A DNA stretch of 22,200 bases from the IMG/VR virus record IMGVR_UViG_3300048130_000007, positions 1 through 22,200 of that record; one strand, 5' to 3'. This document shows positions 13-22,200 of the stretch, piece by piece. Below the pieces are notes generated by a model. That model saw nothing but the letters and a program-made list of their open reading frames with translations, had not been told where the DNA came from and ran no database searches. This stretch comes from a virus. Both the position numbers and the translations under genes were made by a program. Position 1 is the stretch's first letter, and the number at the start of each line of letters is the position of its first letter.

Positions 13-585
13 ATGTACTATACCCTAGAAATTACAGGCACGGCATCTGAGTCTAGCATTGTAAGCACGGCAGACCTCAAGACCTTTTTACGTGTTGATC
101 ACAGCGACGAAGACACATTAATTGAAGCGCTACGAAGCGCCGCCATTGAATATGTGCAGAATTACTGCAACCTGCAACTCGGTGACTTGCCTGCTGTCAT
201 GTACTTAGATGATTTCTATGGCACCTGGGAGATACCAATTGGCCCTGTTGCTTCTATTGTCAGCATCACATACAACCCCACAGCAAGCACTACCAGCACC
301 TTGCCGACCAATCAATACTATGCTGACTTAAAGCGCAAGCCTGCACGCATTACAACTGTGTCACCGCCTAGCGTTTACGAATACATTAGCAACGGCGTCC
401 AGGTAAATATGACGCTGGGATATGCAGAGGGCGAAATCCCAGACGGATTGCTGCACGCCGTTAAATTATTGGTGGCGCACTATTATGAAAACCGCAATAT
501 TGTAGTAGTGGGCACGATTAGCAGCGAAGTGCCTAACATGATTCACAGTTTACTGAATCCGTATCGCATAATTTCTGACCGATGA
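13..585 (+). CDS. Head-tail connector protein (HK97 gp6-like)
   Basis: This 190-residue protein looks like the connector that docks under the portal as a ring and starts the neck. Residues about 20-60 (ADLKTFLRVDHSDEDTLIEA, then AAIEYVQNYCN) are the signature of the gp6-like / 'phage QLRG' DNA-packaging connector family. The C-terminal part has the aromatic helix (LLVAHYYENRN) usual in that family, followed by a short tail. Position agrees: it is followed by head-closure and gp10-like genes, and it would normally directly follow the major capsid gene, which here lies at the opposite edge of the window. The start is the first ATG; the ATG of the next gene overlaps its stop in an ATGA. Family call is from sequence pattern; exact copy number and fold are inferred. 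Confidence 0.85.
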   Translation: MYYTLEITGTASESSIVSTADLKTFLRVDHSDEDTLIEALRSAAIEYVQNYCNLQLGDLPAVMYLDDFYGTWEIPIGPVASIVSITYNPTASTTSTLPTNQYYADLKRKPARITTVSPPSVYEYISNGVQVNMTLGYAEGEIPDGLLHAVKLLVAHYYENRNIVVVGTISSEVPNMIHSLLNPYRIISDR

Positions 586-914
586 GAATAGGACAAAGCG
601 ATAGAAGGATAACGATACAACGTTACACCACTAGCACTAACACATACGGCGAGCGCGTGCAAACTTATAGCACGCTAATAACCGTTTGGGCAGAACTGAT
701 GAAGAACGGCATCGGCATGACTGAGCGCATTGTAACAGATCAGGATATGCCTGTGCAACGTGTAAAGTTTAAGATACGAAGCAGCGCCGCTAGCCGTGGC
801 GTAAAAGCCGATGACCGCGTACTTTATGATTCTAAGTATTACAACATTCAAGGCATTGAAGAAATAGGCCGCGACGACCAGCTTGTTTTGCTTTGTCAAA
901 TCTCAGGGACGTAA
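582..914 (+). CDS. Head closure / head-tail adaptor protein
   Basis: A 110-residue beta-rich protein of the phage head-tail joining family (SPP1 gp16 / HK97 gp7-type). It opens with the typical MRIGQSDRRITIQRY strand, where the N-terminus sets out 'GxLxxRITIQ'. The middle has the conserved VWAEL motif, and the end has the VLYDSKYYNIQGIEEIGRDD strand pair that precedes the last strand in this family. It would seal the connector and gate DNA exit after packaging. The start codon overlaps the upstream stop (ATGA), and its own TAA overlaps the next ATG, so translation is probably coupled. Length is normal for the family. Confidence 0.85.
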   Translation: MRIGQSDRRITIQRYTTSTNTYGERVQTYSTLITVWAELMKNGIGMTERIVTDQDMPVQRVKFKIRSSAASRGVKADDRVLYDSKYYNIQGIEEIGRDDQLVLLCQISGT

Positions 915-1396
915 TGGCTAAGGATCACATACACGCCAATACTACGCCGCTGGTTAAACAGTTTGAAGCTCTACGCAAAGAGGTATCTGACTTGAAAGTA
1001 CAGAAGCGAATACATCGCGCGGCAGGCCGTGAGATAAAAAAGGAGATGTTGTCTAACATACAAGACGCACGCGAAACCATACGCATACGCCGAGGCAAAC
1101 AAGCCAAGTTGGATATAAAGCCTGGCACTATGCGCAGATCAATAAAGGTGTGGCTTATAGACAACCAGCACAGCACATATTGGGTTGGGCCACGTGTAGG
1201 ACGTAGAGCGCCGAAAGATGCTGACGCATGGTTTGCAAATATCGTAGAGGGCGATGACCAATTTATAAAGGGCAACAACAGAAACAAAGGCGTGTTTTTT
1301 AAGTCAATCAGTGAAGCAGCACCAAAGGCATATCAGTTAATGAAAAAGAAATATGACTTTCAGATTAGAAAGGTTGCACGTAAAAAGAATAAGTGA
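914..1396 (+). CDS. Neck / tail-completion protein (HK97 gp10-like)
   Basis: A 160-residue basic protein (C-terminus KKKYDFQIRKVARKKNK) in the slot normally held by HK97 gp10-type minor tail proteins, between head closure and tail terminator. Visible family features are the N-terminal helix with 'FEALRKEVSDLK', the central 'TMRRSIKVWLIDNQHSTYWVGPRVG' strand segment and 'WFANIVEGDD', where HK97 gp10 relatives carry a similar Y/W-A-x-x-x-E-x-G motif. The chosen ATG at 914 overlaps the upstream TAA; a TTG seven codons earlier is open but less likely. Probably helps complete the tail-to-head interface. Confidence 0.75.
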   Translation: MAKDHIHANTTPLVKQFEALRKEVSDLKVQKRIHRAAGREIKKEMLSNIQDARETIRIRRGKQAKLDIKPGTMRRSIKVWLIDNQHSTYWVGPRVGRRAPKDADAWFANIVEGDDQFIKGNNRNKGVFFKSISEAAPKAYQLMKKKYDFQIRKVARKKNK

Positions 1397-3762
1397 TGAA
1401 CGTAGGTAAAGCAGTATATGGTATTCTGAGCAGCACAACCGCTGTGACTGATATAGTCAGCACCAACATATTTCCTGAGATTGCAGAGCAAGAAACCGCC
1501 ACGCCGTTTATTGTTTACCAATTGCAGGGCGTTGCACCTGAAGACACGCACGACGGCCCGTCGAAGTTAGATGAAGTGCGCATGGAAATCATTTGCTTTT
1601 CTGACAGCTACAACGGTGCAGCCGACTTAGCCGACAAAGTGCGCGGTGCATTGGATCGCGTTAGCGGCACATACAACGGAGTCAATGTTGAATCGGTACA
1701 GTTCAACAACGTTGACATTGAAATAGAATACGATCCGCGCCGTTACTCACAGGTAACGACTTACACGTTTAGAATTAAGCGCGATGACATTACTATTGCA
1801 GCAGGCACGCCAGTAACAGGCGCAAAGCTTGGCGATTTAAGCGACGTTGATGTTGCAGGCGTAAGTGACGGCCAGTTCATTAAGTACGTAGCAGCACAAC
1901 AGGAATGGCAAGCGGCTGATAGTACGGGCGGCGTGACATCGTTAGCAGCTTTGACTGATGTAAACCTTACAGGCTTAGGCAGCAAAGACGTAATAAATTA
2001 CAACAGCACAACAGGCAAGTGGGAGCCTGTCGACTTTTTGAATGTGCTGTACACCAATTTAAAAACAGGGGTAAGCACTACCATTAACGATGGCGCAAAT
2101 ACCAACAGCGCATTAGAGTTAGGCGCAACAACGGCAAAACTGAAGACGGGCATAAGCGAAATACTTATAACAGAGACTAGTCCAGGAGACATTGATTTCA
2201 TAGTAGCGACAGACGGCAGCGGAACGACAGCATACACCGCGCTAAACATTGACGGATCAACATCAGCTAACGAAGCTATTTTTAACATACCTGTTGGCAC
2301 GCAACTGCATATTAAGAGCGCCACGCATTACGCTTATCTGCGATACTCAGGCGGTGCGAACGCCTCGTTAAGTTTACCAACAAGCTCAGGCACGATAGCA
2401 AGACTAGCAGACATTGCACTAGACTCAGCAGTAGCGGCCAACACTGCGAAGACAGGCATTACGTCAGGGCAAGCCTCGGCCATTACAGCAAACACTGCCA
2501 AGGTTAGTTACACCGATGCCAGTGCAGTAGCTGCAAACACAGCAAAAAATACTTATCCGTCAGCCGATGCAACAAAGTTGGCAGGCATTGAAACAAGCGC
2601 AGACGTAACAGACGCGACAAACGTAGCGGCGGCAGGCGCATTGATGGCGGCAAGCGCACAACTTACAGGTGACCTAGACACGCAAGCCAACGAGATAAAG
2701 ACCACGACAGCCAACGGCAATATAATTGTAGCGCCTAAAGGCACGGGCGTGCTAGAAGTCAAAGGCGACACCAACAGCGCGGCCATTATTTTAAACTGCG
2801 AAGCAAACTCGCACGGCGTTACTATACAGTCGCCAGCTCATTCGGCTGGTGCAACCTATACTTTAACCTTGCCAACAAGCGCAGGATCAAACGGCCAAGC
2901 TTTAACAACTAACGGATCGGGAGTTTTGTCGTTTGCTGATGTAAGCAACAACGCGGGCACAGTTACAAGCGTAGCAACTGGCACAGGCTTAACAGGGGGC
3001 ACAATTACGGGAAGCGGTACGATTGCGCTTGCAGACACAGCGGTAACAGCAGCGGCATACACGAACGCTGATATAACCGTAGACGCGCAGGGAAGGATTA
3101 CAGCGGCAGCAAACGGAAGCGCGGGAGGTGTTACTTCTGTGAATAGCTTAACGGGCGGCTTGACAATTGCGGCAGGTGCAAACGTGACTATATCCGACAA
3201 CGGCAGCGATACAATTACAATTGCGAGCAGCGGCGGCGGCGGCGGTGGATTGACTGCGGTAACGGGCACAGCACCGATCACAAGCAGCGGAGGGAATACT
3301 CCTGACATTGCAATAACGGCAGCGACAACAAGCGCAGCGGGTTCAATGAGTAGTGCAGACAAAACGAAGCTTGATGACATTACTACGAACTACGCAACAA
3401 ACGCGCTTAACACGGGGCAAAATATATTGATGACTGCGACAATATCCGTTGCAGATGACAAGATTGTTGATGTGATGGGTGATGCATTAGCCGCAAGAGA
3501 TAACGCGAATTCCAAAAAACTCATTGGATTTCACACAGGAAGTAATGAGGTTGTTTTGCAAGGGATGGTTGACGCAGGTGCTGCAATTAGCGGATCGGCA
3601 GCGGGCGCACCTCTTTGGCTTGGCGCATCGGGTACATTCAGCGCGACAGCACCAACAACAGCAGACGAATATTCACGAGTTGTCGGTTACTATATTGGCG
3701 CGATTGGTTCAGCATACGCAGTTTACTTCGACCCTTCGAAAGATTGGGTTCAAATTAGTTAA
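1396..3762 (+). CDS. Tail terminator (DUF3168-like) fused to a long repetitive fibre domain
   Basis: This 788-residue protein joins two parts that are usually separate. Residues about 1-130 look like a DUF3168-type tail completion/terminator protein: short helix, FIVYQLQG strand, the VRMEIICFSD strand and a closing YTFRIKR strand; such proteins are normally about 130 residues. From about 140 it becomes low-complexity fibre: two 'LsDVdv-G...W' modules (about 144 and 181), Ala/Thr/Asn coiled segments near 344-390, the GTVTSVATGTGLTGG module at about 520-575 widely seen in phage fibres, a six-glycine linker at about 613-618, and a C-terminal beta domain. The start is the ATG overlapping the upstream TGA (TGATG). 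The frame is continuous, with no sign of a frameshift. A tail terminator sits at the head-tail joint, so the fibre may project from the neck. Confidence 0.75.
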   Translation: MNVGKAVYGILSSTTAVTDIVSTNIFPEIAEQETATPFIVYQLQGVAPEDTHDGPSKLDEVRMEIICFSDSYNGAADLADKVRGALDRVSGTYNGVNVESVQFNNVDIEIEYDPRRYSQVTTYTFRIKRDDITIAAGTPVTGAKLGDLSDVDVAGVSDGQFIKYVAAQQEWQAADSTGGVTSLAALTDVNLTGLGSKDVINYNSTTGKWEPVDFLNVLYTNLKTGVSTTINDGANTNSALELGATTAKLKTGISEILITETSPGDIDFIVATDGSGTTAYTALNIDGSTSANEAIFNIPVGTQLHIKSATHYAYLRYSGGANASLSLPTSSGTIARLADIALDSAVAANTAKTGITSGQASAITANTAKVSYTDASAVAANTAKNTYPSADATKLAGIETSADVTDATNVAAAGALMAASAQLTGDLDTQANEIKTTTANGNIIVAPKGTGVLEVKGDTNSAAIILNCEANSHGVTIQSPAHSAGATYTLTLPTSAGSNGQALTTNGSGVLSFADVSNNAGTVTSVATGTGLTGGTITGSGTIALADTAVTAAAYTNADITVDAQGRITAAANGSAGGVTSVNSLTGGLTIAAGANVTISDNGSDTITIASSGGGGGGLTAVTGTAPITSSGGNTPDIAITAATTSAAGSMSSADKTKLDDITTNYATNALNTGQNILMTATISVADDKIVDVMGDALAARDNANSKKLIGFHTGSNEVVLQGMVDAGAAISGSAAGAPLWLGASGTFSATAPTTADEYSRVVGYYIGAIGSAYAVYFDPSKDWVQIS
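3229..3249 (+). repeat. Short GGC-type tract encoding a six-glycine linker
   Basis: Four GGC codons followed by GGT and GGA form a small microsatellite inside the fibre part of the terminator-fibre gene. It separates the common GTVTSV-type fibre module from the C-terminal beta domain and looks like a flexible hinge. Triplet slippage would change linker length without breaking the frame. Confidence 0.6.
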
Positions 3763-3764
3763 TC

Positions 3765-4559
3765 ATGGCAGAAATCTCAGGAGTCCCAACAGCGGACATT
3801 AACAACATCGACGGGTTTTTTACCACACAAGGCGGAGGCGGCACAGCCACAACCAGTCCGACTATTAGCACGATGTCCGATATTTATGGAAGTGGTCAAA
3901 CCGTAACCATTACTAATTACGCTTCATATACGCAACCAACCGTCAACGCTTCTGTGTTTATTGGAGCGACGGAAATTGTAAGCAACGCGAATATAACTGA
4001 CAGCAATGGCGTTTTAACGTGGACGGATACAAACGCCAGCACATCTACAAGAACCTTAAAAGTTCGGGTGCAGGAGTTTGGCGATTTCGTACAATCCGCA
4101 GAGGTCACAGGCACTTATGATAAACTTACGGCAACTTTCCGATATTTCAAATGCGTTGGAGTTGATTCATCAGGCAACGCCAGCAGCTTACACATGGGGA
4201 TAAGGGACTGGAGATATACAAGCAGCGGCACAGATTACCCAAGCGACATGACAGCCGACAACGCACCAAGTCCTTTTGTGGCAAGTGCGGGTCATACGTT
4301 CAGTAGTTATTCACCTTACAAGGCTTTTGACTCGTCAACCTCAACGTGGTGGTGGTCACTTACAACCTCAACCGCAAACAATTATTTGATTATCGACATG
4401 GGCGCAAGCTATACAATGACGAGCGGCACCATTCGGTTTTATAGCGGTTCAAGTATTCGATACGTCACCATCAGCGGAAGCACGGACGGCACAAATTACA
4501 CAGTAATCAATGACACTTTACAGATTGACCTGACAAACTCAGACATGAACATAATCTAA
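3765..4559 (+). CDS. Putative carbohydrate-binding tail protein with a discoidin (F5/8 type C)-like domain
   Basis: A 264-residue secreted-looking but signal-less phage protein. Residues about 1-40 contain a flexible Gly-rich stretch (TTQGGGGTATTSPTIS). Residues about 40-120 look like a beta-sandwich of the Ig/Big type (GQTVTITNYASYTQPTVNA...VRVQEFGDFVQSAEVTG). From about 124 the sequence resembles a discoidin domain: HMGIRDWRYTSSG near its start, then YKAFDSSTSTWWWSL, NYLIIDMGASYTMTSGTIRFY and YVTISGSTDGTNY, matching the 'A-D-x-xxxTxW...IDLG...I...VxISxSxDGxxW' order of that fold. It probably binds surface glycans. It follows the fibre gene after 2 nt, so it may ride on or assist that fibre. 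Confidence 0.65.
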   Translation: MAEISGVPTADINNIDGFFTTQGGGGTATTSPTISTMSDIYGSGQTVTITNYASYTQPTVNASVFIGATEIVSNANITDSNGVLTWTDTNASTSTRTLKVRVQEFGDFVQSAEVTGTYDKLTATFRYFKCVGVDSSGNASSLHMGIRDWRYTSSGTDYPSDMTADNAPSPFVASAGHTFSSYSPYKAFDSSTSTWWWSLTTSTANNYLIIDMGASYTMTSGTIRFYSGSSIRYVTISGSTDGTNYTVINDTLQIDLTNSDMNII

Positions 4560-4735
4560 TGCAATACACTCAAGAACAAATTACAGCGGTTGTTGCGGTC
4601 ACAGGCGCAGAGCTTTTTATTAATCACGTGCTAGGCATATACTGCGAAGCGGTATTTGTTGGGATGCAATTAAGCCACGACGCGGACGGATTAACAGAAG
4701 AGGATATTGCAGCAATTCAAAGTTTGATGCCTTAA
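4559..4735 (+). CDS. Small hypothetical protein (58 aa)
   Basis: An uncharacterised 58-residue protein with no motif I recognise. The start ATG shares its A with the stop of the discoidin-like gene (TAATG). The sequence is mostly helical and mildly acidic: it begins MQYTQEQITAVVAVTG, has a central stretch with one Cys (GIYCEAVFVG), and ends in LTEEDIAAIQSLMP, which looks like a capped amphipathic helix. The tight coupling to the adhesin gene suggests a partner or chaperone of that protein, but this is inference from position only. A 24-nt gap with a promoter-like box follows. Confidence 0.6.
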   Translation: MQYTQEQITAVVAVTGAELFINHVLGIYCEAVFVGMQLSHDADGLTEEDIAAIQSLMP

Positions 4736-4759: not shown

Positions 4760-4927
4760 ATGAAAGTAACATTGTTAAAGGCGTGCAAGCTAGAAGGCAA
4801 CACCTGGAAAAAAGGGGATCAACCTAGCGTGCATCCATTATTTGCAAAGGAGCTTGCTGCAAAAGGTTATATTGCAGCGGAAAACGATATTGAATTAAAA
4901 GAACAAGACCAAGATGGCGATATTTAA
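4760..4927 (+). CDS. Small hypothetical protein (55 aa) before the tail tube gene
   Basis: A 55-residue protein starting at the first ATG after the intergenic gap. The pattern MKVTLLKACKLEGNTWKKGD...HPLFAKELAAKGYI resembles a class of tiny phage proteins built as 'MKVxLLk-xxxxGxxYxxGd...v...A..Li..G.A', a small beta-hairpin/helix fold often found in structural gene clusters. The C-terminus is acidic (ENDIELKEQDQDGDI). It overlaps the major tail gene by 14 nt in another frame. Function is unknown. It is the first gene after a promoter-like box and may be co-expressed with the tail tube. Confidence 0.65.
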   Translation: MKVTLLKACKLEGNTWKKGDQPSVHPLFAKELAAKGYIAAENDIELKEQDQDGDI

Positions 4928-5324
4928 CGGCACAGATTTAGGCGTGTACATTGGCACAACACTCATTGCAGCAGCAACAGACGTGTCATTGACCTTGAAC
5001 GCTGAGACTATTGACATAACAACTAAAGACAGCTCGGCTTTCCGTGAGCTTTTGCCAGGCGTGCGAAGCGGCAGCATCAGCGTCAGCGGTTTGATTGATT
5101 ACGTTGACGCTGCTAACAAAGACTTTATTGACCTATACGCAGCTTGGGAAGGTCGAACAGAATTGACTTTAAAGTTTAGCAAGGCAACACTGGGAACTGG
5201 AGAAGCTAGCTTTGGTGCTAATGCATACATTACTAGCCTTGAGCAGTCAGGCGGCACAGAAGATACAGCAAGCTATTCAGCTACATTTGAGTTGACTGGT
5301 ACAATTGATGAAACTGTTGCATGA
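4914..5324 (+). CDS. Major tail (tube) protein
   Basis: A 136-residue protein of the TP901-1-type tail tube family. The opening MAIFNGTDLGVYIGTTLIAAATDVSLTLNAETIDITTKDS is diagnostic: a beta strand, a loop, then 'd-isl-n-etiDvTtkDS'. It continues with the family's 'lpGvRSGSISVSGLIDY' and ends with a strand set 'ASYSATFELTGTI'. It would polymerise in rings around the tape measure to form the tail tube. The ATG lies inside the end of the previous small gene, and its TGA overlaps the next ATG (ATGA). Placement directly upstream of the G/GT chaperones and tape measure confirms the assignment. Confidence 0.9.
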   Translation: MAIFNGTDLGVYIGTTLIAAATDVSLTLNAETIDITTKDSSAFRELLPGVRSGSISVSGLIDYVDAANKDFIDLYAAWEGRTELTLKFSKATLGTGEASFGANAYITSLEQSGGTEDTASYSATFELTGTIDETVA

Positions 5325-5605: not shown

Positions 5606-5943
5606 ACGGCACTGACCAGGATATAGGCTGGGCCGATGTTATTAAGATGGGGATGGGCATTTTGCGCCTGTCCCCTTCTGCGTTTTGGTCTATGACCTTT
5701 GGCGAGATAAGCCTTGCACTAGACGCGAACAGAGAACAGGAAGAAATGCGGGAGCGTATGCAGTGGGAGCGCACGCGGTGGCTTGGTTCTATGATCATGC
5801 AACCGCACTTAAAGAAAGGCCGTAAATTGCGGCCAAAGGATTTAATGCAATTCCCATGGGAGAAGCCAAAGCAAAATGCGCTTAACTTGACACATGAAGA
5901 ATTGATTGCAAGAATTAAAGCACGCGACGAATGGCAAAGCTGA
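5599..5943 (+). CDS. T domain of tail chaperone GT, made as a G-T fusion by -1 frameshift
   Basis: Read from the slippery run, this frame adds 114 residues to G, giving a GT protein of about 207 residues with the junction ...NSEKK|SIDGTDQDIGWADV. The segment WADVIKMGMGILRLSPSAFWSMTFGEISLAL matches tail assembly chaperones of the type 'lGLsPaeFW-lTp-El--al'. It is followed by a very basic helical region (ERMQWERTRWLG) and a short C-terminal helix. The first in-frame ATG at 5647 would remove part of the conserved segment and leaves a 41-nt untranslated gap, so an independent gene is less likely than a frameshift product. GT would bridge tape measure and tube subunits. The end overlaps the tape measure start by 13 nt. 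Confidence 0.85.
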   Translation, partial: SIDGTDQDIGWADVIKMGMGILRLSPSAFWSMTFGEISLALDANREQEEMRERMQWERTRWLGSMIMQPHLKKGRKLRPKDLMQFPWEKPKQNALNLTHEELIARIKARDEWQS

Positions 5944-7955
5944 ATGATTTAATTGTAACGATTGGGGCGCAGACCCGTCAATTTGATAAAGCGCTAGGCT
6001 CTTCTATGCGCAAAATGCAGAACTTCGGTAAAAGCACGAAGCGTTTAGGCAAGTCAATGACTATGGGCTTGACCGCACCGATTGCGGCGCTTGGCTTTAC
6101 AGCGGTAAAAGCATTCGACCAGCAGGCTAAAGCAATTGCCCAGGTCGAGGCTGGTTTGAAATCAACAGGCAACACAGTTGGCTTTACTTCTAAGCAGTTG
6201 CAGCAGATGGCAAGTGACTTGCAAACCAAAACCATATTCGGTGATGAGGAAATACTAAAGGATGCAACTTCGCAGCTGCTGACGTTTACCAACATTGCAG
6301 GCGATCAGTTTACACGCACGCAGTCGGTTGCTTTGGACCTTGCCACGCGATTAGATGGCGACCTAAAAAGTGCATCCATCCAATTGGGCAAGGCATTAAA
6401 TGATCCGATTGCAAACCTGAGCGCGTTAAGCCGTTCGGGTATACAGTTTAGCGAAGACCAAAAGCAGGTTATTAAAAGCCTGACCGAGAGCGGCAGACTA
6501 GCCGAGGCGCAGACCGTAATACTGGACGAGCTAGAAAAGCAATACGGAGGTAGTGCAGAGGCAGCAGCAAAGGCAGGCACGGGTGGACTCAAGCAGTTGG
6601 CTAATTCCTTTGGTGACTTGCAGGAAGAGTTTGGTAAAATTATAATGGAGTTTTTACCGCCTGTTATTGACGGTCTTAAGAATATGCTGGCCGCATTTCA
6701 AAACCTCAGCCCGCAGGTTAAGAGGTTCATGGTTATCGGTGCAGGAATTGCGGCGGCACTTGGCCCGTTGCTGGTTATACTGCCGACCTTAATACAGGGC
6801 TTCATGGCTTTACTCTCGCCTATTGGTTTAATCATTGCCGCCGTGGTCGGTTTGGGCATTGCGATTGTAACCTTTGCCGATGAGATAGCGCCATACATTA
6901 CCGACGTTATCAATTACTTTATAACGCTATACAATGAGTCTAGCCTTTTGCGTGGCATCATTGGCGGCATAAAGGGCACGGTGCAGGTGGTGTTTGATTT
7001 CTTCCTTTTCGCGGTTGATAGTGTTATAAGCGCATTCAAGGATTTGGGTACGATCATAGGCGCAGTAATGCGCGGCGACTTTAGTGCAATACCCGAATTA
7101 ATTAGCAACGCATTCACCAACGCGGCGGATCGGATGGCCGAGTTTGGTACAAAGGCAGCTGAGGACTGGTCAACCGCAGTCAACACGGAGCTAGAGCGTG
7201 AGCCGCTGGAGTTAGTTACAAAAGAAAGCGTAGCCAACGCGTTAAGCACATTGGGCGGCTTGACTAATTTAATACCGTCAGCAATTAGCGGAGGCGGTGC
7301 AGGTGCAGCAGATACAGGCTTGCAGCCACTAGCCGCGAAAGGTGGCGCAGTAGGGCCAAGTCCGCAGCTAGTAACCCAAAGCAGCACAGCCGTCAGCGAC
7401 TTAGCGGAAAACCTAAAGGCAGGCCGCAAGGAGTTGAGTATGATGGTGGATATGGGGCCAGCAGTCGAGGGCGCTTTTGCAGGTATAGGCATGGCGATTG
7501 GTGGACTGATTGCGGGCACGGTTCAGATGAGCGATATATTTTCACAGGCGGTTCTTGGATTGGCTAGCTTGCTCATTGATTTAGGACAGCAGTTTATAGC
7601 CGCAGGTATAGCGGCCAGCACTTTCTTTGTATCGCTTACAACAAACCCACTGGCAGCTGTGGCGGCTGGTGTTGCATTGGTTGCAGCGGGTGCAGTCATT
7701 AAAGGATTAAGTCAACGTATGGGTTCGACGCCGCCAGCACTTGCACAGGGTGGCTTGGCTTTTGGCCCTACGATGGCAATGGTAGGAGATAACCAAAACG
7801 CAAGCGTTGACCCTGAGGTAATTGCACCATTGAGTAAATTGCAGGGCATGATGGGAGGCGCAAGCGTACAAGTCACAGGCAAAATTTCAGGCCGTGACAT
7901 ACTGCTAACAAGTGAGCGCAATGCAATAGACCGTAACCGAGTAAGAGGATTCTAA
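5931..7955 (+). CDS. Tail tape measure protein
   Basis: This 674-residue protein sets tail length. It has the classic N-terminus (MAKLNDLIVTIGAQTRQFDKALGSSMRKMQNFGKSTKRLGKSM, then MTMGLTAPIAALG), long helical segments, and hydrophobic blocks near residues 263-315 (GIAAALGPLLVIL..IGLIIAAVVGLGIAIV) and 505-595 (GMAIGGLIAGTV..AAVAAGVALVAAG) that may insert into the host membrane during DNA entry. The C-terminal end (LAQGGLAFGPTMAMVGDNQNASVDPEVIAPLSKL) is a motif common to tape measures. At about 0.15 nm per residue the tail would be near 100 nm. The ATG lies within the end of the T frame. It is compact for the family, and I see no peptidase or lysozyme insertion. Confidence 0.92.
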   Translation: MAKLNDLIVTIGAQTRQFDKALGSSMRKMQNFGKSTKRLGKSMTMGLTAPIAALGFTAVKAFDQQAKAIAQVEAGLKSTGNTVGFTSKQLQQMASDLQTKTIFGDEEILKDATSQLLTFTNIAGDQFTRTQSVALDLATRLDGDLKSASIQLGKALNDPIANLSALSRSGIQFSEDQKQVIKSLTESGRLAEAQTVILDELEKQYGGSAEAAAKAGTGGLKQLANSFGDLQEEFGKIIMEFLPPVIDGLKNMLAAFQNLSPQVKRFMVIGAGIAAALGPLLVILPTLIQGFMALLSPIGLIIAAVVGLGIAIVTFADEIAPYITDVINYFITLYNESSLLRGIIGGIKGTVQVVFDFFLFAVDSVISAFKDLGTIIGAVMRGDFSAIPELISNAFTNAADRMAEFGTKAAEDWSTAVNTELEREPLELVTKESVANALSTLGGLTNLIPSAISGGGAGAADTGLQPLAAKGGAVGPSPQLVTQSSTAVSDLAENLKAGRKELSMMVDMGPAVEGAFAGIGMAIGGLIAGTVQMSDIFSQAVLGLASLLIDLGQQFIAAGIAASTFFVSLTTNPLAAVAAGVALVAAGAVIKGLSQRMGSTPPALAQGGLAFGPTMAMVGDNQNASVDPEVIAPLSKLQGMMGGASVQVTGKISGRDILLTSERNAIDRNRVRGF

Positions 7956-7956
7956 C

Positions 7957-10356
7957 ATGGCAGACCCAATCAGATTATTTGCTGAGTTTACAGACCAGCT
8001 TGGCACGGACTATAAACTAAACATCCACGAAAGCGGATACGGCGGCAGCGCTACCGAGTTTAACCTTGGATCAGATGGCTTTGTATTGCGTTACAGCGGT
8101 GACAATGAAACCCGAATGCAGCCAATCATAGGCAGCGAGGTTACATTTACTTTGACGGAAACGGTTTCCGAACATACGGCTATGCTTACGGCCTTAGCCA
8201 CTAGTGAAGATGCTGACTTTAAGGTGAGCATTTACAAAGACCCTGACGGCGCTAACACTTTGTTTTGGACAGGCGTGCTGTTGCATGAACAGGTAGAGCT
8301 GCAAGATGAGGCTTACCCTATTCAGAACACAATGAATGCGGTTGATGAGTTAGGCGATCTTAAGAACGTGCTGTATAATAATGCTGGCAGCGCATACACT
8401 GGACGTGAAACTATTGCAGCGCATTTAGTGAAAGCGTTAAATAAGACACGCGCATTACACGTCTATGGCAATACAGATGTATTCCTAAAGTATGCAAATG
8501 ACTTCAAGCCTACGACATTTAGCAGCGCAAACGCATTGACAGAGTTAGAAGTAAATCATGCGGCTTTTTACAACGTTGACGAGGCTGGTTTTGTTAAGTA
8601 CATGACAGCCTATGATGTCTTGACAGATATAGCCACAACGTTTAACGCACGCGTCTTTTTTGCTGAGGGTTATTTTTGGTTTGTTCCAGTTGGTGCAGTC
8701 AAAAACAATGTGACTATTAACGTTCATACGGTAACAAAGGCGGGCACGGTTAGCGGATCAACGAGCGCGGTAAATACTCGGCTTACAACAGGCAGCGACA
8801 TTGTCAAGCTACGCGGCGGCACTACTAGCTTTTTGCCACCTTTAAACATTGTGCAACGTACTTGGCGAACAGATGCCAACGTTCCTTTGATTGGCCCTGA
8901 AACGCAATTTCTAAATGCCTCAGGCCAGCAGACAGCATTAGGTGCAAATATCACTGACAACAATTTAGCCTATGATAATGGCACGCTCTTTAGGTTTCAG
9001 TTCAGATACACTCACAGTTTTGACGGCGATGGGTCAAGTACAGGCGCAGATCAGCACGCAAGGCTAGTCCTAAAGTTGCAGATTAAGGTCGGTAGTTTGT
9101 ACTATAATAACGCTGTAACCTTTGGCCCAACAACAATGACGTTTGGCAATGCTGGAGCGACTTACAGCGTTGACCAAATGAATTTTAGCGCACCAGCGTG
9201 GTCATCAAGTGCTGGATATTTTTACTTCGCTGTCACTCCATTGCCTTCGTACTTAAATAAGAACAATGGATTATTTTACAATCTAACGTTTACACCGCAA
9301 AGCTATGCGAGCCTTGCACTATACAATCAACCTGTTATAATTGACTTGCTGCCAATAACAAGCGCACAGACTGGCGCACTGATGACGGTAAACGTTGAGG
9401 GTTACGACGTAGATGGTAACGTTATTACGGACGTAACGGGCACAAATGCAGATGGCAAGCTCGACAATTTTACAGTGCAAGTTTTAAACGGTGGTTTGAC
9501 TAATGGCGACAGGGTTGTATATGAAGCTAACACATCAGATGCCAATCAGGAATCACTAATTCAGGACGAGGTTGTAATAGGGTCAAGTCAATTTAATGAC
9601 GTCAGGAACATTTACGAGAACAACAGTTCACCAAGCCAACCTATTGATAGTTTTGCAAGCTTTGCGAATAGTAGTGCAACCTTTGCGATCCATAAGCTTG
9701 GCGTCAAAGAGGTATTGGCAGGGCAAAACTTTAGCACAAGAGTGCGGCGCGGTACAGTTTACAAAAGCTTTGTTAGTCCCTTAAATACAATGCTCTTTGG
9801 GTCGCGTGATTTTCTACCGTTTGAAACATCGTATAGTGCAGACGCTGTACAAAGCGAATACGAAGCGTTTTTCTTGACTAGCAGCGACACAAATGTAACT
9901 GTACTGGACGGCCAGGTATTTGATGATCACACACCAGTTGACGAAACAGAACCAATATACGACATACGCAATGCGTTTGTTCCTACTGACGGCGATTTGC
10001 CACCTAATATGTTACAAAGGTTTTTGCAACAGCCGATTCGCAGCATAACGCATCGTGACACTGTTACTAATGACGTAACGGCTACTGATCAAATGATATT
10101 CAACACGTGGACAGGGCCGAATGGTACAGGTAGAATTCAATTGCCCGTTGTGTCAGGTAACGAAGGCCGCATCTTGCGATTTCAAACAGACAGCAGTATA
10201 GCCGCAAACAAAATTATAATCATTGCACCTAACGTTTCAGACTCAGGTGTAACTATCGACGGCGCAAGCAGTTACACATTAGATAGGGATTATGACGGCG
10301 TTAGTATCTTGTGCCATGCAAGCAACTGGTACATAATACAGAAAAAAGAGAAGTGA
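7957..10356 (+). CDS. Distal tail / baseplate protein, putative host-recognition
   Basis: A 799-residue protein directly after the tape measure, where distal tail and tail-associated proteins are encoded. The N-terminus (MADPIRLFAEFTDQLGTDYKLNIHESGYGG...FNLGSDGFVLRYSGD) is a beta-rich pattern I associate with baseplate proteins of Bacteroidota siphophages, including the 'R-pIigS-v-f' segment and 'FWTGVLLHEQVELQDEAYP'. The middle is beta-rich with no recognised enzyme motif. The last 95 or so residues (TGPNGTGRIQLPVVSGNEG, then IIIIAPN, TIDGASSYTL and NWYIIQ) look like a small beta-helical or trimeric tip domain often found at fibre ends. No peptidase or glycosidase motif is visible. The role is from position; the hub and receptor-binding functions may be combined in this one protein. 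Confidence 0.65.
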   Translation: MADPIRLFAEFTDQLGTDYKLNIHESGYGGSATEFNLGSDGFVLRYSGDNETRMQPIIGSEVTFTLTETVSEHTAMLTALATSEDADFKVSIYKDPDGANTLFWTGVLLHEQVELQDEAYPIQNTMNAVDELGDLKNVLYNNAGSAYTGRETIAAHLVKALNKTRALHVYGNTDVFLKYANDFKPTTFSSANALTELEVNHAAFYNVDEAGFVKYMTAYDVLTDIATTFNARVFFAEGYFWFVPVGAVKNNVTINVHTVTKAGTVSGSTSAVNTRLTTGSDIVKLRGGTTSFLPPLNIVQRTWRTDANVPLIGPETQFLNASGQQTALGANITDNNLAYDNGTLFRFQFRYTHSFDGDGSSTGADQHARLVLKLQIKVGSLYYNNAVTFGPTTMTFGNAGATYSVDQMNFSAPAWSSSAGYFYFAVTPLPSYLNKNNGLFYNLTFTPQSYASLALYNQPVIIDLLPITSAQTGALMTVNVEGYDVDGNVITDVTGTNADGKLDNFTVQVLNGGLTNGDRVVYEANTSDANQESLIQDEVVIGSSQFNDVRNIYENNSSPSQPIDSFASFANSSATFAIHKLGVKEVLAGQNFSTRVRRGTVYKSFVSPLNTMLFGSRDFLPFETSYSADAVQSEYEAFFLTSSDTNVTVLDGQVFDDHTPVDETEPIYDIRNAFVPTDGDLPPNMLQRFLQQPIRSITHRDTVTNDVTATDQMIFNTWTGPNGTGRIQLPVVSGNEGRILRFQTDSSIAANKIIIIAPNVSDSGVTIDGASSYTLDRDYDGVSILCHASNWYIIQKKEK

Positions 10357-10559
10357 TGGAATGGGAAATTTTAGCGGCGGTATTACCAGTAGTGGCTGGC
10401 TTAGTTGGTGTATGGGTTAACCTAAACAGCACAGTGGCAAGGCTAAAGAGTCGCGTCATACAGCTAGAGATTGACAGCAACGAGATAAAGAGCGACATGA
10501 AAGAATTGTTAGCCGCCGTGCATAAGATTGAATTAATGATTGCTAAATTGCAGAAATGA
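10356..10559 (+). CDS. Small membrane-anchored coiled-coil protein, possible lysis accessory
   Basis: A 67-residue protein with one N-terminal hydrophobic segment (ILAAVLPVVAGLVGVWVNL, about residues 5-23), followed by a heptad-rich region (NSTVARLKSRVIQLEIDSNEIKSDMKELLAAVHKIELMIAKL). This layout is common for small phage lysis-region proteins, including haemolysin XhlA-like membrane proteins, which pair with a holin and amidase. The start is the ATG sharing its A with the upstream TGA; an ATG 15 codons earlier exists but lies inside the tail gene. The end overlaps the endolysin start as ATGA, so the two are probably translated together. It could be a holin or an endolysin partner; the sequence cannot decide. 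Confidence 0.65.
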   Translation: MEWEILAAVLPVVAGLVGVWVNLNSTVARLKSRVIQLEIDSNEIKSDMKELLAAVHKIELMIAKLQK

Positions 10560-10921
10560 GGTATTTCAACTATCATGAGTTTGACAGCCCTGATGCTATT
10601 GGCAGCGGCGAACACATGATGGATCAAGACTTTTTGCAGATGTTAGACCGCGCAAGGCATTTAAGCGGTGTGTCGTTTAGGATCAACAGCGGTTACAGAA
10701 CGAAAGAATTCAATAAAAAGGTAGGCGGAAAGCATAACAGTGCACACCTTGCTGGTTGTGCTGCTGATATACACTGCACGGATTCACGGGCGCGGTGCTA
10801 TATAGTTGGCGCATTGCTTGAGGTTGGTTTTAACCGCATAGGCATAGCCAAGACGTTCATACACGTAGATAACAGTTATGATGCAAGTCATGACGAGGAT
10901 GTAATTTGGCTATATGATTAA
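10556..10921 (+). CDS. Endolysin, M15-family peptidase
   Basis: A 121-residue metallopeptidase of the M15 (D-Ala-D-Ala carboxypeptidase / L-Ala-D-Glu endopeptidase) fold that would cut peptidoglycan stems at lysis. The zinc-ligand pattern is intact: S62-x-H64 within SAHLAGCAADIH, D71, and H103 in TFIHVD. The preceding 'FRINSGYRTKEFNKKVGG' is the family's 'i-SGyR-p-lN--vgG' motif. It has no signal peptide and no cell-wall-binding domain, so it depends on a holin-like partner for export. It is short but normal for a phage peptidase M15_3. It sits between two small membrane proteins (10356-10559 and 11650-11832), giving a lysis cassette. Confidence 0.9.
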   Translation: MRYFNYHEFDSPDAIGSGEHMMDQDFLQMLDRARHLSGVSFRINSGYRTKEFNKKVGGKHNSAHLAGCAADIHCTDSRARCYIVGALLEVGFNRIGIAKTFIHVDNSYDASHDEDVIWLYD

Positions 10922-11627
10922 CACGATCCGTCCACGAATTAATGCCCAGCAGAAAAGAGCGCTGGACTACTTAAGAACAAAGGAGCGGCGTATTTTAGTT
11001 ATTGGTGATTTGCATTGTCCTTTTGAGCTTGACGGCTATTTTGAGTTTTGCCTTGACACCTACGATAGATTCGCGTGCAATCAGGTTATTTATATTGGCG
11101 ACATTCTGGACAATCATTATGCCTCATACCATGAAACAGATAGCAACGGAATGAGTGGGGGCTATGAACTGCAAGAAGCCATTAAGCACGTTGATAAATG
11201 GGCGCAGGCCTTCCCAATTGCAGATGTAACCATTGGTAACCATGACAGGCTGATAATGCGAAAGGCGTTTAGCTCATCCGTACCAAGGGAATGGATCAAA
11301 GACTATAACGAAGTGCTCAGCACGTCATGGAATTGGGTGGAGCGCATCGAATATGACGGCGTGCAATTCTGTCACGGCGAAGGCGGCACTGCACGGACGA
11401 AGGCAAAGAACGATATGCAAAGCACGGTACAGGGCCATATACATACTCAGGCCTATGTTGAGTGGCTAGTTGGAAACCGTAGCAAAATATTCGGAATGCA
11501 GGTAGGTTGTGGAATTGACCGCGATAGTTATGCGGCTGCATATGCCAAGCACTACAAAAAGCAGGCGATTGGATGCGGCGTGGTAATTGGTGGGCACACG
11601 GCTATTAATTGTTTGATGCCTCTTTAA
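10914..11627 (+). CDS. Calcineurin-like metallophosphoesterase
   Basis: A 237-residue protein of the calcineurin-like phosphoesterase superfamily. Its metal ligands are in order: D32-x-H34 (VIGDLHCP), D63 (YIGDILDNH), N109-H110-D111 (TIGNHDR), a late CHGEG and QGHIH. These motifs form a two-metal site able to hydrolyse phosphodiesters or phosphomonoesters. The substrate is unknown. In phages such enzymes may act on nucleic acid ends, cyclic nucleotides or host nucleotides. The gene lies within the lysis block and its ATG overlaps the endolysin stop by 8 nt. Its C-terminus is followed at once by a promoter-like box. The enzyme class is firm; the biological role is not. Confidence 0.9.
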   Translation: MINTIRPRINAQQKRALDYLRTKERRILVIGDLHCPFELDGYFEFCLDTYDRFACNQVIYIGDILDNHYASYHETDSNGMSGGYELQEAIKHVDKWAQAFPIADVTIGNHDRLIMRKAFSSSVPREWIKDYNEVLSTSWNWVERIEYDGVQFCHGEGGTARTKAKNDMQSTVQGHIHTQAYVEWLVGNRSKIFGMQVGCGIDRDSYAAAYAKHYKKQAIGCGVVIGGHTAINCLMPL

Positions 11628-13694: not shown

Positions 13695-13878
13695 TCAGCA
13701 CGCAGCTGACGACCTAGGTGTGAGCTTGCGAACGATTAAGAACTGGATGGCTGTAAACCCTACTGGCATACTGAAGCACAGCACATGGATAGTGCAGAAG
13801 CAGAATGTAGAGCCTTTGGAGCTGTTCGATGCGGTTGCCAAAACAATGGAACAGATACATGAAGGGCGGCCAAGGTAA
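13633..13878 (+). CDS. Small HTH-like DNA-binding protein candidate
   Basis: An 81-residue protein with a plausible helix-turn-helix: LRQFIRQLWESDQHAADDLGVSLRTIKNWMAVNPTG, where 'aa-dLGVs-rTIknWm' is the usual HTH pattern with a conserved Gly and a recognition helix. The rest is helical with no catalytic motif. It is the best candidate regulator in the window and may bind the operator-like repeats before the early genes or assist the replication initiator downstream. It starts within the previous gene (62-nt overlap) and its end overlaps the initiator start by 20 nt. The start codon is the first ATG in frame and is not independently confirmed. Confidence 0.6.
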   Translation: MKQEQNTINLRQFIRQLWESDQHAADDLGVSLRTIKNWMAVNPTGILKHSTWIVQKQNVEPLELFDAVAKTMEQIHEGRPR

Positions 13879-14590
13879 GCGCACGGGCATTTGGATACCG
13901 CTAGAGATATGGCAGCTAGACATTGCTGTCATGGATCGCGTGTTGCTATCTGAGGTAGCCAGTTTTGAGGCAAATAATTTGCAATGCTTTGCCACGAATG
14001 AACACCTGGGCGATTTAATCGGCATTAGTGAGGACCGCGCACGAAAGATTATTTACAGGCTGATCAGTCAAGGACACCTAAAGAGGGGGGTGGTTGCCAA
14101 CGGACAGGGTGGGCACAAACGGACTTTAGGGTGGGTGTCAACGGCCAGGGGGGTGGGCGTCAACGGACTTTTGGGTGGGCGCCAACGGACACATAAAAGA
14201 GAATATACTAAAACAATTACTAAACCAGTACTAAACCAAGGGGAAAAATTCAAAATTGTGTTGCCTTGGCAATCAGAACCCTTTACCGCTGCATGGTCTG
14301 AGTGGCTAGAGTACAAGAAAACAGATCACCGATTCACCTACAAATCGCCTAAAACTGAACAAAGGGCACTAATCAAACTGCAAAATGAGTACACTGACGA
14401 AACAGACGCAATCGACGCAATACATAGAGCAATTGCGAACGGATGGAAAGGCTTGGTATTTGACGCACCCAAAGGTGGGCGAGCTAACAAGCGCCGAGCG
14501 GATAACCTTGAAAGAGATCGCAACAGAGAAAAGCTTGCAGAATTTGCAAGGACTGGACGCATCGCGCCTGACTCTGGAAATGTGCTTTAA
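13859..14590 (+). CDS. Replication initiator with winged helix and DnaD-like C-terminal part
   Basis: A 243-residue protein that looks like a phage replication initiator of the lambda O type. Residues about 40-78 form a winged helix-turn-helix (CFATNEHLGDLIGISEDRARKIIYRLISQGHLKRG). A Gly/Arg-rich linker (about 78-115) follows, encoded by the iteron DNA and so probably unstructured. Residues about 135-200 (LPWQSEPFTAAWSEWLEYKK, then YKSPKTEQRALIKL and AIANGWKGLVF) match the conserved C-terminal part of such initiators in Bacteroidota phages. The protein would bind the iterons in its own gene and load the host helicase; no helicase is seen in the window. The ATG at 13859 lies just inside the previous gene's end; an ATG 10 codons upstream is possible. 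The last 206 nt overlap another reading frame. Confidence 0.75.
   Translation: MKGGQGKRTGIWIPLEIWQLDIAVMDRVLLSEVASFEANNLQCFATNEHLGDLIGISEDRARKIIYRLISQGHLKRGVVANGQGGHKRTLGWVSTARGVGVNGLLGGRQRTHKREYTKTITKPVLNQGEKFKIVLPWQSEPFTAAWSEWLEYKKTDHRFTYKSPKTEQRALIKLQNEYTDETDAIDAIHRAIANGWKGLVFDAPKGGRANKRRADNLERDRNREKLAEFARTGRIAPDSGNVL
14088..14191 (+). repeat. Replication-origin iterons: five 19-bp direct repeats inside the initiator gene
   Basis: Five copies of a 19-mer with consensus GGGTGGGCGTCAACGGACW start at 14088, 14107, 14129, 14151 and 14173. The first two abut and the others are spaced by 3 bp, giving a 22-bp period. Because 19 and 22 are not multiples of three, each copy lies in a different codon phase and the encoded peptide is not repeated, so the DNA itself seems conserved. 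Iterons within an initiator gene and followed by AT-rich DNA are the layout of lambda ori. Confidence 0.8.
14192..14262 (+). other. AT-rich probable DNA unwinding element of the origin
   Basis: Directly after the last iteron the DNA changes from G-rich to about 73% A+T over the next 60 bases. It holds three short direct repeats with the core TACTAAA starting at 14206, 14218 and 14229 (12- and 11-bp steps). AT-rich repeats flanking iterons are where initiator binding opens the duplex in lambda-type and plasmid origins. Confidence 0.6.
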
Positions 14591-19638: not shown

Positions 19639-20829
19639 ATGGCAAATTTGTTCCAACGGATTTTTAAGCGTGGTGGTTATCAGGTAGCCTATACGGGTTA
19701 CCCTTCCTTTGCATCACACTTGCGCGGCATCTCAACAAAGAGCGGTGCATTTATTGACACGGAAACGGCACTAGGGCTAACCACTGTTTATGCCTGTGTT
19801 AGTCGTATCGCGTCAACCATTGCACAGCTGCACTTGGATATAATGACGCGCAACGAAGACGGAGTTGTAAAAGCCACGGGCCACGTAGCGCAGGACCTCA
19901 TCAGCCAAGAGCCAGAGCCAGGATATACAGCCTTTGACTTTTGGGAAACGTACATTAGCAATGTTCTAATTTACGGCAAGGCATACGCCATAATTAAGCG
20001 TTTGCCGAATGGCGACCCATATGAACTTTGTTTAGTCAACCCAAAGAGCGTAAAGCAAAAGATGGTTGACACTGATTTAGTGTATGACATAAAGGACCAT
20101 GGCATTTACTTCCATGCAGATATGCTGATTACTTGCAACCTGTATGGTCAGAGTCCGATTGAATTGCACCGCGAAATGTTGGGACTAGCCAAGGCAGCCC
20201 AGGACTTTGCTAGTGAGTTCTTTGGTAGCAGCGGAAACATGACGGGCATACTGTCAAGCAACGAGCCGCTGAAGAAAGAGCAGATTGATATTATCAAAGA
20301 CAGTTGGAACAATAGCGGCGATCAGCTAGGCACGAAGCTTTTACCTTTTGGCTTTAGCTATAACCGCATAGCTGTTGACCCTGAGAATGCGAGTTTAACC
20401 GAGCAGCGCGATTTTCTGAATCAAGAAATTTGCAGAATCTTTGGCGTGCCGCCGTCTATGGTTGGCGTCCAGTCCAATGTAACTTACAGCAACACGGAGC
20501 AGCAAGCCATTCAGTTTGCAAAATATACGATTGTGCCCTGGACGCGCAGGCTAGAGCAGGAAATGAATTGCAAGCTGTTAGCACCTGACGAACGGCCTAC
20601 ACACTTTACACGGTTTGACTTAAGCGACCTATTGCGAGGCGATAGCGTTAGCCGCGCACAATACTATGACACTCTGATTAAATCAGGGGTCATGTCAATC
20701 AATGAGGCGCGAGCCGCTGAAGACCTCAACGCGGTTGACGGAGGTTCAATTCACACCGTGCAAGTGAATCAAATCGCGTTAAACAGCCTTGAAGATTACA
20801 GCAAAAAAATTAGTAGCGATGGAGAATAA
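19639..20829 (+). CDS. Portal protein (HK97 family)
   Basis: A 396-residue portal of the HK97 type; twelve copies form the DNA channel at the capsid vertex. The features fit: FQRIFKRGG near the start, TALGLTTVYACVSRIASTIAQLHLDIM (typical 'a-l-vtaVyaCv-lia-tia-lpl'), DFWETYISNVLIYGKAYAIIKR, LGLAKAAQDFASEFFGSSGNMTGIL, PFGFSYNRIAVDPENASLTEQRDFLNQEICRIFGVPPSMVG ('l-err-f-n-eIaraFgVPp-llG'), and TIVPWTRRLEQEMNCKLL. The ATG at 19639 is preferred because it lies just after the promoter-like box; an ATG 11 codons earlier is inside the terminase. The gene overlaps the protease-capsid gene by 11 nt. Confidence 0.95.
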   Translation: MANLFQRIFKRGGYQVAYTGYPSFASHLRGISTKSGAFIDTETALGLTTVYACVSRIASTIAQLHLDIMTRNEDGVVKATGHVAQDLISQEPEPGYTAFDFWETYISNVLIYGKAYAIIKRLPNGDPYELCLVNPKSVKQKMVDTDLVYDIKDHGIYFHADMLITCNLYGQSPIELHREMLGLAKAAQDFASEFFGSSGNMTGILSSNEPLKKEQIDIIKDSWNNSGDQLGTKLLPFGFSYNRIAVDPENASLTEQRDFLNQEICRIFGVPPSMVGVQSNVTYSNTEQQAIQFAKYTIVPWTRRLEQEMNCKLLAPDERPTHFTRFDLSDLLRGDSVSRAQYYDTLIKSGVMSINEARAAEDLNAVDGGSIHTVQVNQIALNSLEDYSKKISSDGE

Positions 20830-22200
20830 AAAAGATGAGCGATTAAATGAACTGCGTAAACAGTACGGCGATAACGTAGAACTGCGAACAAGCGAAGTGC
20901 GAGCCGCTGGCGATGACGCTCTAGTTATCGAAGGCTATGCCGCAAACTTTGAGCAGGTTACAGACCTGGGATATTTCAAAGAACAGATTGCACGCGGTGC
21001 GTTCGATGAGGTCATGGAAGATGACGTTCGGCTGTTGCTCAATCATGACGGCGCACCGATGGCACGAACGAAAAACGGCACGCTAGAATTAAGCGTTGAC
21101 GAAAGCGGCCTAAAGTATCGGGCTGCTTTAGCAGACACGCAAGACGGGCGCGACCTTTACAAACTAATAAAGCGCGGCGATATATCACAAAGCTCGTTTG
21201 CGTTTACAATACAGGATCAGGAATGGAACGAATCGCGCACCATGCGCACCGTGACTAAGATGGCGCGACTGTTAGACGTGTCACCTGTAACGTATCCAGC
21301 ATATCCAACTACTACGGTGGCAGCACGAAACATGGCAGATGTAAAGCCTGAGCCAGTGCAAGAAACCGAAACGAAAACAGAGGCAACAACTGAAAGTCAG
21401 GAAACACGTACCTTTGCTACAACAGCGGAACGACCCGCGAAATCTTTTAAGAATATGAATTTTAGAAACAGCACAGATGCGGCCCGCTACATCAGCCAAC
21501 TAGAGGCTAAGCTCGGCAACATCAACGACCTCGCAGAAACCGAGGAACGCGCGTTGACCTCTGAGGAATTGGAAGAAACGCAAGACATTCACACAAAGCT
21601 CGAAGCGGCTGAACAGCAGCGCGATGCATTGTCAAAAAACGAAGCACGCCTAAAGCGTCTTGCCGTTGCAGCCGATGCGGTTGTTCGAAGCGACAAGGAA
21701 GTAATTAAGGCAACAGCACAGTTTGACTTAGGCAAGGCTTTGCGCGAAGCAGCACAGGGCGGTGTAACTGGATTGGAAAAGGAAATTGCACAGGAAGCAC
21801 GCAGCGAAGCATCTGCTTTGGGCTTGGGCTTGCGCGGTGATTTTGCTATTCCACAATCTATGTTGAACGAAGCACGTAACGTTTACGGTGTAGACGCTGG
21901 CGCAGCTGGTGTAAATGACGCAGTGACAACAGTAGCCACTGAGGTGACTGCATTGGTTGGCGCTTTGCGTTCTAACTCTTTGCTTGCTGCAACAGGAGCA
22001 ACACAGCTGAACGGGTTTGTTGGCGATATTAAGATGCCTTCACTTCCAACTGACGCGGCAGAAGAGCCAGCAGAAGCAGCGGCCATTACAGGCAACACGG
22101 GTGCGATGGGTCAACAGACTCTAAGCCCACAGCGTATTGCTCAGCAGATGATCGTTACTAAGGAAGCTATCAACCAAACCAACGGCAACATGGCCGAGGT
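20819..22200 (+). CDS. Fused prohead protease and major capsid protein (partial at right edge)
   Basis: This frame starts at ATG 20819 and stays open to the window edge (460 codons). Residues about 20-160 are an HK97-type prohead protease: EGYAANFEQVTDLGYFKEQIARGAFDE, catalytic H76 in LLLNHDG, and S126 in SQSSFAF, followed by the strand VSPVTYPAYPTTTV. Residues about 175-300 are a linker and a coiled coil (ISQLEAKLGNINDLAETEERALTSEELEETQDIHTKLEA), like the capsid delta/scaffold domain. From about 335 the HK97-fold capsid begins (GLRGDFAIPQSMLNEARNVYGV, then TALVGALRSNSLLAATGA, GDIKMPS and ETKE-like ITKEAIN). Protease, scaffold and capsid form one polyprotein, where HK97 uses separate genes. 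It should be cleaved during maturation. Confidence 0.88.
   Translation, partial: MENKKDERLNELRKQYGDNVELRTSEVRAAGDDALVIEGYAANFEQVTDLGYFKEQIARGAFDEVMEDDVRLLLNHDGAPMARTKNGTLELSVDESGLKYRAALADTQDGRDLYKLIKRGDISQSSFAFTIQDQEWNESRTMRTVTKMARLLDVSPVTYPAYPTTTVAARNMADVKPEPVQETETKTEATTESQETRTFATTAERPAKSFKNMNFRNSTDAARYISQLEAKLGNINDLAETEERALTSEELEETQDIHTKLEAAEQQRDALSKNEARLKRLAVAADAVVRSDKEVIKATAQFDLGKALREAAQGGVTGLEKEIAQEARSEASALGLGLRGDFAIPQSMLNEARNVYGVDAGAAGVNDAVTTVATEVTALVGALRSNSLLAATGATQLNGFVGDIKMPSLPTDAAEEPAEAAAITGNTGAMGQQTLSPQRIAQQMIVTKEAINQTNGNMAE

Follow-up and report, generated by a model that had tools for sequence, protein, structure and literature searches.

The stretch of viral DNA analysed here (the window, 22.2 kb) reads, from its genes, as a complete or largely complete genome of a small siphophage. 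One of its genes (1396-3762, + strand) encodes a protein of 788 residues in which a tail terminator is followed by a long fibre. The best reading of this gene and its surroundings is that the phage probably carries neck fibres that are anchored by the terminator itself and bear exchangeable adhesins. The predicted location at the neck of the virion is drawn from the modelled fold and the order of the genes.

Genome organization

The gene order begins with Ad1 (13-585), followed by the head closure protein Hc1 (582-914, + strand; PF05521 at E 2.5e-14, PHROG 25 at E 9e-15) and a putative gp10-like neck or tail-completion gene (893-1396, + strand). The latter is assigned mostly by position, its matches to PF04883 (E 0.01) and PHROG 5 (E 0.0015) being weak. 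Downstream of the terminator-fibre gene lie a gene for a discoidin-type protein (3765-4559, + strand), an ORF of 58 aa (4559-4735, + strand) which among the loci compared occurs only with the same cassette, and the gene for the major tail (tube) protein (4914-5324, + strand; PF06199 at E 5.5e-14, PHROG 1407 at E 6.9e-25). Two small genes occupy the chaperone position after the major tail protein; between them and the tail-tip gene stands the tape measure gene (5931-7955). The tail-tip gene, which is single and large (7957-10356, + strand), has a weak match to PF13550 (E 0.003), and 3' of it are further genes, terminase, portal and protease/capsid. Inspection of the ORFs of the window and profile searches revealed no fibre gene besides the fusion and no more than this one large tail-tip gene.

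Several other features of the window were recorded. A gene for an M15 peptidase, a probable endolysin, overlaps a metallophosphoesterase gene (PHROG 221, E 1.5e-49) at 10556-11627. A tandem repeat of about 22 bases (GGGTGGGTGCCAACGGACA...) at 14088-14191, perhaps a replication origin or a protein-binding repeat, is located inside an ORF (13829-14590) with a weak helix-turn-helix match. At 20789-22198 a prohead protease domain (PF04586, residues 36-185) is encoded in a frame that runs on, and the downstream part of this frame resembles a major capsid protein that the end of the window truncates.

Terminator domain

The ORF at 1396-3762 is present as the sequence-only reading had described it, with an ATG at 1396 that overlaps the upstream TGA and no internal stops. 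Its first 130 residues (1396-1785, + strand) are a tail terminator by sequence, predicted fold and gene position, in agreement with the DUF3168-type terminator of about 130 residues which that reading had named. PF11367 covers residues 5-127 of 788 with profile positions 1-123 of 124 (E 1.1e-13), scoring 51.8 bits where 24.5 is the cut-off, about twice the value needed, and a hit to PHROG 347, 'tail terminator', spans residues 1-130 (E 2e-16). An AlphaFold2 model of residues 1-215, built from 29 sequences, has pLDDT values of 72-97 in blocks of 10 residues over residues 1-130; the linker at residues 131-150 is poor in the model and predicted to be disordered. A Foldseek search with this model gave 47 PDB matches at E ≤ 0.001, nearly all of them, judged by title, terminators or neck/cap complexes. 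In structural alignments, a comparison with known terminators for which the sequence-only reading had called, the modelled domain has the terminator fold. The top match is a virion chain of RcGTA (6tba_4A; Z 16.2, rmsd 2.4 over 126 of 134 residues), and T5 p142 (Z 13.2), lambda gpU (Z 11.9), SPP1 gp17 (Z 8.6) and chains of Bxb1 and Mu are also among the matches.

The fusion gene occupies the terminator slot, after the Hc1 and gp10-like genes and before the major tail protein. The same order is found in RcapNL and phiSASD1, with a stand-alone terminator and then directly the tube gene, and the order in TP901-1 is HTC1-HTC2-Tap-Ttp(129 aa)-MTP-gpG-gpT-TMP (PMC4493119). Only in the window, of the orders compared, is this series interrupted before the tube gene by a fibre and an adhesin.

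Fibre part and reality of the fusion

The terminator domain is followed by a linker and the first repeated modules (residues 131-215; 1786-2040, + strand), which are conserved to about residue 200 in relatives, by a fibre shaft (residues 216-659; 2041-3372, + strand) and by a fibre end with the tip FDPSKDWVQI (residues 660-788 and stop; 3373-3762, + strand), a tip common to other marine phage fibre genes. Hits to PHROGs for fibre-type modules lie at residues 140-175 and 320-566. Over residues 422-515 the protein shares 40-69% identity with tail fibres from phages of Pelagibacter, Synechococcus and Prochlorococcus, and residues 439-529 (2710-2982) match fibre gp28 of cyanophage P-SCSP1u (PDB 8i4m, E 1.5e-13), of which there are six trimers per virion (PMC10575957). 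Shaft and tip are thus homologous to known phage fibres, the frame is open throughout, and a continuation of some 650 fibre residues without a stop, as claimed earlier, is confirmed.

When viral contigs were scanned with only the terminator domain as query, 80 related, marine loci at 76-100% identity were obtained, and in all 80 the frame reads through past the terminator domain. The genes that are complete (51/80) encode 384-1201 aa, with a median of 812; the remaining 29 run off the contig end, each after at least 170 residues. Selection acts in frame, with a pN/pS of 0.26 over codons 121-178 against more than 2.4 in either shifted frame, of 0.29 over codons 131-178, and of 0.24 for the linker, whose residues are conserved. 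A missed stop or frameshift was rejected on the evidence of the read-through in 80/80 loci and of the selection in frame, and a check for an overlooked stop near codon 135, which the sequence-only reading had proposed, found none. Two short genes differ in kind: in L004 (397 aa), the one odd case, a run of A differs by a single base and the frame is otherwise undisturbed, whereas L071 (384 aa) has a genuinely different, shorter end. A separate internal start for the fibre was also rejected, an in-frame Met being absent between residues 63 and 417; this argument does not exclude GTG or TTG starts. The fusion is present as well in a divergent relative, L179, with identities to the window of 43% for the terminator, 45% for Hc1 and 37% for the major tail protein. 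On these comparisons of sequences the fusion is real and old, and no artefact.

Outgroup terminators, about 23-31% identical and found in Bacteroides/Alistipes-type and related contigs, are stand-alone, complete genes of 122-134 aa. Terminators of isolates likewise stand alone (118-145 aa in Bacteroides phage F4, Methanoculleus virus L4768, phiSASD1, Mae-JY04, Mcat10 and RcapNL). Since outgroup and isolate terminators stand alone, the fusion originated within a clade, or spread across one, in which no cultured member was found: among 50,697 phage records there was no cultured relative, the nearest isolate terminators being 23-31% identical, and no isolate matches to the tail-tip protein or to the fibre tip were found. 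The earlier description of the fusion as unusual therefore holds among isolates but not in this clade, where it is the rule (80/80 loci). A host scan of genome contigs returned a single distant Alistipes MAG, in which the terminator is stand-alone, and a PF11367 survey of 395 genomes of the phylum of that MAG gave five matches, all open frames of 132-195 aa. The literature, covered in open-licence papers only, yielded no fusion of a terminator with a fibre, an absence that is weak evidence; as far as this literature shows, the architecture is unreported. A stand-alone relative of the terminator (L124:4001-4378) has an in-frame stop at codon 9 within a similarity that spans 126 residues, to be attributed to stop-codon reassignment, a frameshift or an error.

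Exchange of the fibre end

Residues 1 to about 200 are common to nearly all members, and the remainder is often replaced wholesale. Comparison of the loci shows that the fibre end and the next gene are swapped from phage to phage as one cassette, on a constant anchor. In L012 and L015 the terminator (98%), Hc1 (99%) and the major tail protein (92%) are nearly those of the window, and the tail-tip gene is 92-95% identical in its first half and, in L015, 84% identical in its second half; the fibre is mostly not alignable to that of the window and the discoidin gene is absent. The tape measure gene of the same two loci is divergent (34%), so the fibre end is not the sole gene exchanged, and the tail-tip gene diverges in more distant relatives. 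In these alignments no other part of the compared region is exchanged as much as the fibre end and the gene after it.

At least four classes of fibre end were distinguished, namely FDPSKDWVQI (that of the window), FNPSNDFIEL, TLTGERQAS and LamG/arabinofuranosidase-like ends, which close with '...IEDNINTFYSIY' and resemble virion proteins of Synechococcus phage S-CBS4 and of Gordonia phages. PHROG 10356 matches both Hc1 of the window (582-914; profile 4-107) and the lectin-like end of L017:2560-5310 (profile 334-624), hinting that some phages may fuse a lectin-like end to the head-closure ring protein; no such precedent was found in the isolates checked.

Pairing of the fibre end with the following gene

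The gene after the fibre was compared in all loci with a complete fibre gene and enough downstream sequence. LamG-type (lectin-like) ends are followed by a gene of 131-134 aa in 55/55 loci, and other ends in 0/22 (Fisher 1e-19, a value that overstates independence because many loci are near-identical). This gene (M..YIIVLP..TQTSE.RA...; for example L017:5313-5711 and L257:7435-7839) has no family match, and that it encodes a fibre chaperone is a guess. Ends other than LamG are mostly followed by a protein that consists of a short N-terminal motif and a binding-type domain, which by Pfam is discoidin, an RCC1-like propeller, LamG or an unassigned domain. In the window the claimed discoidin-like protein was recovered, with an F5/8-type domain at residues 178-250 (4296-4514; PF00754 at E 8.7e-7) and a putative docking motif at residues 1-25 (3765-3839, + strand), proposed on account of the pairing of N-terminus and fibre tip.

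The sample was widened by a search with the tip alone, which added further phages. Tips of the form KDW[VI][QK]I are followed by a protein that starts with M(A/G)EISG... in 19/19 loci, and KDW[VI]E[LM] tips by one that starts with an (S/A/D)I(S/D/N)K(L/V/I) motif in 24/24. For FDPSKDW tips overall (window 3373-3839 and L166-L212), the N-terminus of the next gene product matches the tip variant in 43/43 cases, across otherwise unrelated anchors. The strongest argument for docking of the discoidin protein on the fibre tip is this matching on anchors that are unrelated, which suggests such docking but falls short of proof because co-inheritance of neighbours could also contribute. The decoration of the fibres by the discoidin protein, as envisaged in the sequence-only reading, is accordingly borne out only indirectly, by the strict pairing of tip type with next-gene type. 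The pattern further points to a single binding module in each cassette, whether in cis or in trans, and it is possible that the FDPSKDW tip and the N-terminal motif constitute a general docking code for trans adhesins.

Fibre ends on another anchor

A second group of marine phages (L167-L169, L173-L176, L213-L290) has the same fibre ends and following genes on a different N-terminal domain of about 150 residues, 'MITFNNIVERFEDF...' (MITFNNIVERF...). One tip of this group is 100% identical over residues 660-787 and is followed by a 95% identical discoidin gene; the terminase and the gene order of the group differ from those of the window's group. The MITFNN domain has no matches in Pfam, PHROG, PDB or profile searches. 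Its predicted order of helices and strands resembles that of a terminator, in an AlphaFold2 model that is too poor (pLDDT 42) for judging the fold. The FDPSKDW-type tip also occurs on other, unassigned N-termini in further loci. Because the same tips are found on anchors that lack a recognizable terminator match, the tip indicates a fibre and not the neck, and the neck assignment depends entirely on the terminator domain. L257:4004-8431 combines a MITFNN-type fibre and a gene of about 132 aa with the type of major tail protein found in the window's group (71%), which makes this locus either a recombinant or an assembly chimera.

Proposed neck fibre and alternatives

At the head-tail joint the N-terminal domain would sit as a ring that closes the tail tube; known terminators assemble as six-membered rings on the head-side end of the tail (PMC11784142, PMC11948020). 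Past the flexible linker the chains would exit the ring and bundle into fibres projecting from the neck, the linker after residue 130 carrying the fibre outward by analogy with phiCD508 gp53. In other members the fibre end itself would be a lectin-like head. In the window the product of the next gene would dock on the FDPSKDWVQI tip by way of its first 25 or so residues and present its discoidin domain, a sugar-binding type, and the result would be multivalent, probably glycan-directed adhesion. Copy number, bundling into trimers, docking, the glycan target and a role in adsorption are parts of the mechanism that we infer. Six chains with trimeric modules predict two three-chain fibres, or an arrangement not foreseen; the lack of a one-to-one match between them is a point against neck fibres. 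The C-terminal tag of T5 p142, which is suggested to fold into the lumen (PMC11784142), likewise counts against an outward fibre. As the anchor is the terminator itself, deletion of the gene would remove the tail cap along with the fibre.

The term 'second adsorption device' used in the sequence-only reading may understate the role of the fibre, which may be the main device of host recognition; such a role is possible because exchange is strongest in the fibre end and next gene while the tail-tip gene is conserved where these are swapped. The fibre could equally be accessory, by analogy with TP901-1. The full form of the first view, in which primary receptor binding and the setting of the host range fall to the neck fibre and the tail tip merely opens the envelope, appears rather unlikely. 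The swap of fibre end and next gene beside a tail-tip gene that is still 84-95% identical (L012, L015) argues for it, as does a window with one large tail-tip gene and no other fibre genes; but the tail-tip gene is divergent in more distant relatives and known neck fibres are accessory, the collar of TP901-1 being non-essential (PMC6669499). The neck fibres of Anabaena phage A-1(L), which did not bind the host (PMC10966104), also count against it and indicate that adhesion is not automatic.

The remaining alternatives concern the fate or the function of the chain. Cleavage of a precursor after assembly or translation, which would leave a small terminator and a free fibre elsewhere on the virion, is improbable. 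Such cuts are known in other phage proteins and the linker at residues 131-150 is predicted to be disordered, but a separate gene, as in all isolates checked, would be simpler, the linker is conserved (pN/pS 0.24) and the fusion is retained at 43% terminator identity. It is quite improbable that the fibres are whiskers for assembly or environment sensing like T4 fibritin, and not adhesins: T4 whiskers are thought to aid folding or retraction of tail fibres (discussed in PMC10966104), but the window shows no side tail fibres to retract. The constant exchange of lectin-like and discoidin ends is moreover a pattern of receptor binding, unlike one of assembly. There is, finally, very little to commend the view that the domain no longer serves as a terminator and has another place on the tail while a different protein ends the tube. 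Related folds are reused in several tail proteins and some small ORFs of the window lack an identification; against this, the domain is in the terminator slot, the interval from the gp10-like gene to the major tail protein contains no other candidate, and the nearest folds belong to neck terminators.

If terminator-anchored neck fibres, the preferred reading, are taken further, a more speculative and doubtful extension is that the exchangeable, host-determining receptor-binding apparatus of this clade has moved from the tail tip to the terminator ring, with tip and separate lectin obeying a short docking code that otherwise unrelated phages share and the MITFNN anchor perhaps being a second terminator-like one. 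If the reading as neck fibres is right, the neck ring would be, besides the tail tip, a platform for adhesin swapping in ocean phages, and host-range genes of uncultured siphophages would also have to be sought under the label 'tail terminator', where annotators overlook them. Predictions on virion shape and copy number would be testable, and the fibre tip and a peptide of about 25 residues would be a natural docking pair through which unrelated phages appear to swap sugar-binding domains. The question thereby raised is whether these phages recognize their hosts from the neck.

Comparison with known systems

The gene of a conventional siphophage tail-tip receptor-binding protein lies downstream of the tape measure gene, whereas the fusion is encoded upstream of the major tail protein. 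With the PF11367 terminators (SPP1 gp17, TP901-1 ORF41, RcGTA), which share their fold with lambda gpU and T5 p142, the window protein has the profile, predicted fold and gene slot in common; they are stand-alone proteins of about 118-160 aa, whereas the window protein has about 650 more residues of fibre. In T2/S16-type phages gp38 is a small separate adhesin whose gene adjoins the fibre gene and which docks on the fibre end. The window resembles this arrangement in having a separate, putatively docking adhesin beside the fibre gene, but gp38 is unrelated in sequence and sits on the tail fibres of myophages, without a neck anchor.

Among extended terminators, phiCD508 gp53 has the terminator fold in residues 1-123 of 272, and its C-terminal linker and strand bind the sheath outside the tube (PMC11948020); by analogy this solved structure is the nearest structural precedent for an outward C-terminal extension. 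It shares an extension outside the tube with PVC16 and other extended terminators (PMC11948020, PMC11784142), but these extensions bind a contractile sheath and none is a fibre or an adhesin. The fibres of A-1(L) (gp82-gp81-gp80; PMC10966104) are anchored in a neck ring and have a carbohydrate-binding module at the end, but they are separate proteins on the 15-mer neck ring of a myophage, with no terminator fusion.

The closest working analogue is the neck passage structure (NPS) of lactococcal phages (TP901-1 ORF51; 936-group), with an anchor of about 130-180 residues, seven end classes and a proposed location at the collar (PMC6669499). As in the window's group, where the N-terminus is conserved and the domains of the ends were assigned by Pfam, a constant N-terminal anchor is followed by a fibre and exchangeable ends of carbohydrate-binding type. 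The NPS has a protein of its own, with a BppU-like anchor, which is encoded away from the terminator and is non-essential in TP901-1, whereas in the window the anchor is the terminator itself, is not BppU-like, and is accompanied by a second, putatively docked adhesin encoded by the next gene. Neck fibres are thus already known, and it is the terminator-anchored form, as predicted from the sequence, that would be new.
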